Shown here in pieces: positions 10,489-15,275 of a stretch of DNA of 40,645 nt; positions within the stretch are counted from its first letter, which is position 1, and every line of letters begins with the position of its first letter. Location: NCBI GenBank assembly GCA_027061855.1, contig JAMOVT010000046.1:1-40645 (forward strand), written 5' to 3'. The translations under genes were made by a program, and so were the position numbers. The DNA is from Flavobacteriales bacterium. Lineage in GTDB: Bacteria > Bacteroidota > Bacteroidia > Flavobacteriales > Flavobacteriaceae. The notes beneath the pieces are model-generated. The model was not told the DNA's origin. It saw only the letters and a list, made by a program, of their open reading frames with translations, and did not search any database.

Positions 10489-10649
10489 ATTCATAAGGCC
10501 TTTGTACTTCATTCGGTATCAAATTATAAACGAAATTCATTTTTTGAAAAAGCAATAATAATTTAACATACATCTACACGGCCTTTAAAATAAAATTCCG
10601 GATTAATTATAAAACCAACACCCAATTAATATAGTTAAGTATTTGTTTT
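10489..10649. other. Non-coding gap between convergent genes
   Basis: An AT-rich stretch of 161 bases between the aminotransferase and the broken CPBP gene. I see no RNA gene and no strong terminator hairpin, unlike the other convergent junctions in the window. Confidence 0.5.
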
Positions 10650-11426
10650 TTAATTTATTACAGCCAAATGTTCTTCTTCTTCTTTCATTTTATTATTTAG
10701 CTTATTCCAAAATAAGCTTATCGCCATAGCAAGGAATAAAATAATTAATGGCGTCGGGAACTTGGTTTCATTAATCATCAAAGGAACATTGACTAATGAA
10801 TGAACACCGGTCAAATAAATCAGATTTTTGGTTTTTAAATAGATTAAGGTAAATATAATTCCCACTATAAAAATTTTGATTAAGTCTGCCAATAAATTAT
10901 CTACTTGGTTTATCATTAACCTGTTGGGAATATGAATAATTGCAAAAAATAATTGAGACGAAATTATGGCAAGAACGATTGCTTTTTTGTCACTGAATTT
11001 ATATTTGAAAAGGAGATAGAATTGAGTGAATAATAAACCCCTGAACAAAAGTTCTTCAAATGCTGCATTTCCAAATATTTGTCCCAAAAAATAACCTGTT
11101 TTTAAATTGATTTTATCAGAAAATATAATCTGATTTTGAGAAAAATAGGAGAAAGCCAGCGAAAACACTTGCGTTATAAGCCATATTATAAGTATCCATT
11201 TTAAGCCTTGTTTAATTTTCCAAAATTAAAAATCAGTATAGAAAAAAAATAGAAAGGAAATAAAACCGGCAATTAATGCAGGCTGAATGAGATGGTTTGT
11301 ATGCCGGGTGATATTTTCAAAATACTCGATTTTAAGCAGATAATTCCAAACATATATATTTAAAGGAAGAAGCAATATTATAAGGATAAGAATTTTGGGT
11401 GATATTCTTTTTACTTTAAAGCTCAT
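10650..11426 (-). pseudogene. CPBP-family intramembrane protease gene interrupted by an in-frame TAA
   Basis: One reading frame runs from ATG at 11426 to the stop at 10650 and is broken only by TAA at 11226-11228. The upstream part gives 66 residues with two membrane helices (KILILIILLLPLNIYVWNYL and a later LIAGFISFLFFF). The downstream part contains the CPBP/Abi motifs EELLFR and FFAIIH, in which the Glu pair, Arg and His form the metalloprotease active site. Read through the stop, the product is 258 codons, the usual family length. The downstream part has no in-frame ATG before the motifs, only a GTG at 11168. It is the last gene of the PadR-PspC operon. A sequencing error is the main alternative. 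Confidence 0.75.
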
Positions 11427-11472
11427 TATTATATTATTTAAATTAATATATGAATAAAAATTTTTTTGGAAA

Positions 11473-11829
11473 CTAAACCCTTTGGCTCTCTCCCAAATTG
11501 CCTATTTCTTTGAACTTTATAAATTGTTCCGTCTTGTATCCGAAATCATCCTCATAATACCGGCGATTCTTTTTTGATAAATAAGGCAGGCTTACCAGCG
11601 AAATAAAGAAAAGAATAATTACTCCCGTTTCCAGCCAAACGCGTTTGGATTCGTCAACCGGCAACATTCGTACTCCGAAATAAATTAAAATAAAGGGCCA
11701 TAATCTGAATAAATCTCCCAGATTAAAATCAAATAATCCGAAATTGCGTAACAATAATAAAAATCCGAGTATAACCAAAAATATACCCAAAATAATATTA
11801 CTTCTCGTGTTTAATGTTTGTGTATCCAT
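11473..11829 (-). CDS. Small LiaI/LiaF-like (DUF5668-type) membrane protein
   Basis: A 118-residue membrane protein. NIILGIFLVILGFLLLLRNFGLF and LFRLWPFILIYFGVRML match the paired-helix LiaI/LiaF N-terminal module, in which a WP motif begins the second helix. A third helix follows at VWLETGVIILFFISLVSLPYL, and a hydrophilic tail closes the protein. In Firmicutes such proteins belong to envelope-stress circuits; here only the domain and the location next to a PspC gene support a similar role. It belongs to the minus-strand operon that begins with DUF4870. Confidence 0.75.
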   Translation of the reverse strand: MDTQTLNTRSNIILGIFLVILGFLLLLRNFGLFDFNLGDLFRLWPFILIYFGVRMLPVDESKRVWLETGVIILFFISLVSLPYLSKKNRRYYEDDFGYKTEQFIKFKEIGNLGESQRV

Positions 11830-14639: not shown

Positions 14640-15275
14640 ATGAAAAAAATATACCTTTTTATATTTGCCTTGTCTTTTGCCGGCCTGTTTGTTTCATGTG
14701 ATAAAAATGACGATGAGCAATCAGATCCTCAAAATCCTACTGACGGTTTTACCGTAAACGGGATTTTTTATGAAACGCCCAATTGTTATATTGAATTTGA
14801 CACCAATAGTAATCCCAATGAGTTTAATCTCTTTTTTACCGACGGCCGTATGTATGATAACCAAGCCAATGTAAACAATAGTTCCGGGGACTACCTTTTT
14901 TCCACCAATATGACCAATTGGGTATTTTATAATATCCGAGACTTGGAAAATCCGTCGATTGTCACTCCGCAATATCCTAATATTCAAACGGGAGTTCAAT
15001 ATGTAGGAAATCCGGGAGATTGTGTAATCACTTATGATTTGAGTGTTGCGAGTCTATCACCGGCTTTTCAATACAATAACTTTGAATTTGGCATGGTTAC
15101 TTCCGGCACTACGCATATTCCCGGTGCGATAAGTCCTTTTCTGACTATAAATTCCTATTCCTATGATCCTGCCACTCAAACGGGAACCATCAATGTAGAT
15201 TATTCATTTCTTGACAGTAACGGAGTGACTATTACAGGACATTATGAGGGGACATTGGGTGTCATCCTTAATTAA
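14640..15275 (+). CDS. Probable surface lipoprotein of unknown function
   Basis: A 211-residue protein with a type II signal peptide: KKIYLFIFALSFAGLFVSC places the lipidated Cys at residue 20. The following DKNDDEQSD is acidic, resembling the export signal that sends lipoproteins to the cell surface in Flavobacteriia. The rest is beta-rich with many Asn, Thr and Tyr, and I do not recognise a family. The phrase FTVNGIFYETPNCYIEF near residue 40 is typical of small Bacteroidota lipoproteins. It is a single gene, and its stop TAA overlaps the pnuC stop on the other strand in the palindrome TTAATTAA. Confidence 0.75.
   Translation: MKKIYLFIFALSFAGLFVSCDKNDDEQSDPQNPTDGFTVNGIFYETPNCYIEFDTNSNPNEFNLFFTDGRMYDNQANVNNSSGDYLFSTNMTNWVFYNIRDLENPSIVTPQYPNIQTGVQYVGNPGDCVITYDLSVASLSPAFQYNNFEFGMVTSGTTHIPGAISPFLTINSYSYDPATQTGTINVDYSFLDSNGVTITGHYEGTLGVILN

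Follow-up and report, generated by a model that had tools for sequence, protein, structure and literature searches.

An interrupted CPBP protease gene in a Flavobacteriales contig is probably a recently inactivated pseudogene carrying two indels that cancel in phase

A putative gene for a CPBP (Rce1-like) protease in a 40,645-nucleotide stretch of DNA from a Flavobacteriales bacterium (GenBank assembly GCA_027061855.1, contig JAMOVT010000046.1; the whole stretch is called the window here) appears to be split by a single in-frame TAA, which raises the question of whether that codon is itself what broke the gene. Translation of the minus strand over 10650-11426 gave 66 residues from an ATG at 11426, the TAA at 11228-11226, 191 further residues and a final TAA, all in one phase, in agreement with the initial annotation, which had described two frames in the same phase on either side of the TAA. 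Its addition that the two are separated only by that codon is correct for the present frame and fails once other members of the family are considered, since relative to them the surroundings of the TAA are frame-displaced. With both the TAA and this displacement in place, the locus holds no uninterrupted frame yielding the protein. We consider it likely, from comparison of sequences, that the locus is a pseudogene of a laterally acquired gene for a CPBP (Rce1-like glutamic intramembrane) protease that was recently inactivated by two lesions (Table 1).

Table 1. Positions in the window of the interrupted gene, its parts and the interval that contains it
Feature	Positions	Strand	Evidence
Whole disrupted CPBP (Rce1-like) gene	10650..11426	-	Both halves align to the L035, G634 and G1322 proteins
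66-codon upstream fragment, TM1 and most of TM2	11229..11426	-	Translation; TM positions from the L035 model, low confidence there
T8 run (coding strand), best site for the frame change, one putative extra base	11242..11249	-	Change-point scan
Shifted-frame stretch matching relatives (FFSILIFNFGKL)	11213..11248	-	99 versus 15 for three close relatives
Present-frame TAA within the displaced stretch	11226..11228	-	Translation and shifted-frame comparison
Approximate junction of the putative ~37-nt loss	11212..11213	-	29 nt from GKL motif to TM3 tryptophan versus 66 nt for a 22-residue loop
191-codon downstream open part, TM3-TM8 with EExxxR, FxxxH and HxxxN	10653..11225	-	Translation, PF02517; helices numbered after the L035 model
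GTG, first common start codon in the downstream frame	11166..11168	-	Lines up with L035 residue 96, within TM3 (helix 77-106)
984 bp between aminotransferase stop and LiaI-like stop, containing the gene	10489..11472	.	The same two genes overlap in both same-genus genomes

CPBP or Rce1-like proteases have a membrane fold of about eight helices, and their motifs go by the names EExxxR, FxxxH and HxxxN. The first two, already annotated in the downstream frame, are indeed there as EELLFR and FAIIH, and the third is present as HSLVN; a Pfam scan matched the downstream part to PF02517 (E = 1.4e-17, 64.2 bits against a cut-off of 22.4), and the upstream 66 aa alone matched no Pfam family at E 0.1. 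In PMC11980579, E, E, H and N residues are named as catalytic in CPBP proteases, and the three motifs of the window gene supply these residues. The three motifs and PF02517 are common to the window gene and the CPBP/type II CAAX endopeptidases (Rce1-like; MmRce1, PDB 4cad), from which the window gene differs in its interrupted frame and its shortened TM2-TM3 loop. Myxosortase-type CPBP profiles in NCBIfam (MrtC, MrtJ and Mrt_core) gave only 16.7 to 25.2 bits with four proteins, against cut-offs of 75 to 195, the ABC_perm_CPBP profile gave 26.3 against a cut-off of 435, and a sequence search of solved structures returned no match at E 0.01.

The nearest homologs found came from Mangrovibacterium lignilyticum (Bacteroidota, Prolixibacteraceae; L035), whose intact 267-aa protein was encoded at the sole locus confirmed among 48 pattern matches in a contig collection, from genome G1322 (L045; 290 aa, a single intact frame) and from genome G634. 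Identity to the window gene was 24/51 compared residues upstream and 80/188 downstream for L035, 23/54 and 82/186 for G634, and 24/54 and 95/188 for G1322, in both parts similar to what the relatives show among themselves. Because both halves align to the single L035 protein, the two frames derive from one gene rather than from chance, and the earlier description of one CPBP gene in two pieces is therefore upheld. With the lesion excluded, 104 of 239 compared positions of the L035 protein and 119 of 242 of the G1322 protein are identical to the window protein, and both proteins have the same motifs; unlike the window gene, both are single intact frames with a 22-residue TM2-TM3 loop (counted by eye for G1322). 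An AlphaFold2 model of the L035 protein (pLDDT 63.7, below 50 for residues 13 to 48) places TM1 at residues 7 to 29, TM2 at 46 to 66 and TM3 at 77 to 106; its best PDB match was Rce1 (4cad; probability 1.00, E 0.044, TM about 0.5), and there was none at E 0.001. Mapped onto this model, one lesion of the window gene is located where TM2 ends and the other within the TM2-TM3 loop.

Comparison with these proteins showed that the sequence around the TAA resembles its relatives in a different frame. When the reading is moved on by a single base, the stretch that starts in a run of eight T's (T8) gives FFSILIFNFGKL, which matches TM2 of the relatives (IFSILIFYVGKL, AFAAIIFLFGKL and VFSFLIFIKGKH). 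Overall the shifted frame reads FFSILIFNFGKLNKA and soon afterwards meets a stop of its own; we set aside stop-codon readthrough or slippage. This 12-codon shifted stretch scored 34, 25 and 40 against L035, G634 and G1322, versus 9, 1 and 5 for the present frame (totals 99 versus 15), and when four more distant relatives were added it scored above the present frame for all seven (totals 134 versus -35). It was the best of 81,218 segments from both strands of the window, the next best reaching 72 with the three relatives and 117 with the seven, and its scores were reached by none of 20,000 dinucleotide shuffles. A change-point scan over 25 codon positions placed the best score (178) at three tied neighbouring positions, all within the T8 run, the next score being 173. 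As a control, we moved 12-codon windows along the relatives, where an alternative frame was ahead in 0 of 253 windows for L035, 4 of 253 for G634 and 1 of 253 for G1322, by a margin that never exceeded 5.5. Of the 230 such segments along the window gene, an alternative frame was ahead in six, with margins reaching 25, and the top three listed were all from the TAA region.

A second difference lies just downstream. We measured the loop between the GKL motif, or its equivalent, and the tryptophan of TM3. A script counted 22 residues in L035, G634, G613 and G722 and 21 in G586 and G766; for G1322 it printed 17 because it had halted at a W lying before the right one, and the count by eye was 22. 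The same interval in the window gene is 29 nt, 37 fewer than the 66 nt of a 22-residue loop, and none of the seven relatives has a loop as short. The window gene is thus short of about 12 codons in the TM2-TM3 loop, so that its product had been called "normal-length" inexactly. The two putative changes, +1 and -37, sum to -36: the outer frames agree, 12 codons are gone, and the TAA takes on the appearance of a lone nonsense codon.

One alternative is that the TAA arose by a single in-frame nonsense substitution, as the initial annotation supposed, and that the loop of this gene was short by nature. In favour of this, the outer frames agree, and the G634 copy provides an example of a lone in-frame stop within the TM2-TM3 loop. 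A frameshift-aware alignment, run with three of the seven relatives (L035, G634 and G1322), was divided according to the assumed cost of a frameshift: at a penalty of 12, two frame steps were preferred (579 versus 575, 545 versus 542 and 622 versus 616), and at penalties of 16 or 20 the plain path with a stop and a gap won for all three, so the outcome depends on that cost. The first frame step was placed in the T8 run for L035 and G1322 and, for G634, 15 nt upstream of the best point of the run. Against a substitution, residues of the present frame near the TAA match the relatives poorly, the relatives following the shifted frame from the T8 run to 11213 with ~37 nt missing thereafter, and no known relative among the seven offers the short loop that it needs. 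We regard it as very unlikely. The suggestion that relatives be checked for a sense codon at 11226-11228 probably asked the wrong question, as the stretch at that position is displaced in frame.

Another alternative places the defect in the data, with the organism having an intact gene and the consensus giving the wrong number of bases at two sites, the T8 run and the junction. The frame change does map to a homopolymer, the assembly is a draft of 117 contigs, and two small errors could mask an intact gene with a shorter loop. Yet the 37 frames of the window that we took as genes, which had been picked for being open, contain 59 A/T runs of seven bases and 13 further A8/T8 runs, and among 36 other window proteins compared with Pfam (the frame at 14640-15275 was left out) there were no neighbours matching pieces of one family. 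Open frames across the other runs and the lack of a second split gene argue against a general homopolymer problem, and even then the missing ~12 loop codons would still be unusual. We therefore judge an assembly or sequencing error to be unlikely, though the most plausible of the alternatives.

Taken together, these results suggest that the gene was broken by the gain of one base in the T8 run together with the loss of ~37 nt a little further downstream. The ancestral DNA had to be inferred from the relatives, because these are only 43 to 49% identical to the window protein (summed comparisons). The outer parts would have stayed in phase (-36), and the misread stretch between them would expose the TAA. 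Ribosomes that start at the ATG (11426) would make only 66 residues, covering TM1-TM2. In the catalytic part (TM3-TM8) the first usual start codon does not come until midway through TM3, and a functional protease is therefore not expected. The arrangement recalls the mutually compensatory frameshift pairs described in PMC8935012, which likewise consist of two nearby indels with opposite effects on frame; there the second indel restores the frame, whereas in the window gene a stop persists between the two. For annotation, the lesson is one of caution: same-phase pieces around one stop resemble a nonsense mutation, and here relatives favour two indels whose effects on phase offset each other.

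Several observations bear on the age of the damage and on whether the downstream part is still used. At positions found invariant by leave-one-out comparison, the window gene retains 16 of 18 in its upstream part and 45 of 51 in its downstream part; for the relatives the figures are 16 of 17 to 19 and 45 of 56. The lesions must then be young relative to the divergence of the gene, or the downstream part must still be in use; the recent loss that had been proposed is probably right, as the window gene keeps invariant positions as its relatives do. The absence of decay by this measure would also fit a shorter protein, TM3-TM8, made from the downstream 191 codons by re-initiation or from an unusual start. 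Its catalytic motifs and invariant positions are kept, TM4-TM7 form the CPBP domain in MrtX according to PMC11980579, and the downstream frame of the G634 copy has as its first start codon a TTG (L037, 1747) that lies closer to where TM3 begins, opposite L035 residue 84 in the alignment. In the window, the GTG start that had been proposed for the downstream part is possible on paper and lies within predicted TM3, and the first ATG of that frame, at 10916, is beyond the first catalytic motif. We find such a shortened protease improbable. Since TM4-TM7 correspond to the CPBP domain of MrtX, the catalytic part is kept in the sequence and yet probably not made, and the most likely view of the window gene is that it died recently and in an ordinary way.

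The G634 copy (L037, 1489-2295) belongs to the same subfamily as the window gene and is also broken in the TM2-TM3 loop, by an in-frame TAG, with the rest open; the TAG leaves the length of the loop unchanged and lies ~10 residues further on in the alignment than the lesion in the window. The best two alternative-frame windows of G634 start at columns 86 and 83, near the TAG. We treated the alternative-frame excess there (at most 5.5) as noise, though the TAG might have a cause similar to that of the window lesion. Two of the four close members of the subfamily, the window gene and G634, thus have their interruption within or beside the same loop and are otherwise open, as they would be in a true two-gene split protease whose N-terminal hairpin and catalytic part are made separately. 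That the intact close relatives, L035 and G1322, are single genes speaks against such an arrangement, as it does against relatives carrying two separate genes here; furthermore, the two interruptions differ in kind and the window has no sensible second start, so we give this arrangement almost no credence. Hardly more credible, in our estimation, is a rare, scattered and horizontally spread CPBP subfamily in which the TM1-TM2 hairpin would repeatedly be cut from TM3-TM8 and the catalytic part kept as a shorter or two-part protease; the interruptions in the same loop arose from different lesions.

Whole-genome searches, whose counts hold at the cut-off stated for each, showed that the subfamily is sparse and scattered within the genomes sampled. 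Among 60 relatives of the window's genome there were two matches, one being its own copy and the other a weak hit (31%) in G037. The window's own genome was the only one of 395 sampled in the order to carry the gene. In the class at least 1 of 395 did, again through the own copy, with up to 6 candidates taken per genome. In the phylum 6 of 395 did: besides the own copy these were G634, at 45%, and four genomes at 27 to 31%. Searches around G634 found 1 of 80 genomes and, with up to 17 candidates per genome, at least 1 of 146, both times G634 itself; the search around L035, with up to 8 candidates per genome, found at least 2 of 295, L035's own and G1322. Two family searches gave 1 of 2 and, with up to 18 candidates per genome, at least 1 of 140, in each case the genome at the centre. 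No relative was confirmed on viral contigs, and on plasmids there were only partial matches, in two haloarchaeal records. The pattern suggests that a rare CPBP subfamily has been gained and broken more than once, in which case the presence of a CPBP domain is no proof of a working protease.

The gene had been described as closing a stress-type operon, a description that the neighbourhood in two genomes of the same genus does not support. Both of these genomes (G001 and G002) have the PadR, PspC and two LiaI-like genes, and inspection of their ORF lists by eye added a DUF4870-like gene. In both, the PadR-PspC-LiaI-LiaI cluster runs into the convergent aminotransferase gene, the overlap between this gene and the final LiaI-like gene being 20 bp in one genome and 12 bp in the other, with no CPBP gene at the locus. 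Neither genome, drafts of 360 and 450 contigs, held a match to the window protein at E 0.001. The CPBP gene is therefore no conserved part of the PadR-PspC-Lia-like operon. G001 and G002 might have lost the gene, instead of the window's lineage having gained it, but gain in that lineage is the simpler reading because of the gene's single occurrence among the genomes sampled in the order.

We rejected an origin in a mobile element, as the gene has no flanking long repeats; the longest found were a 28-nt inverted pair (75%) and short AT-rich direct matches. G+C was 0.27 to 0.29 over the gene and 0.395 to 0.425 in the aminotransferase gene, and we set low G+C aside as proof of acquisition because the LiaI-like neighbours are near 0.30. 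Between 10450 and 11900 there were no terminators and 13 promoter-like sites, compared with 9.2 (SD, 3.4) in shuffles. The LiaI-like protein encoded at 11473-11829 on the minus strand has a C-terminal tail of ~30 residues that is absent from both same-genus copies (118 versus 90 and 86 aa).

The window's own genome (G000) has one other PF02517 gene. On its contig C80 (L003, 760-2154, minus strand), a 464-aa open frame has an N-terminal Rce1-like domain at residues 134 to 218 and a C-terminal Ham1 family domain at 275 to 458, an apparent fusion of a CPBP protease and an ITPase-like enzyme.
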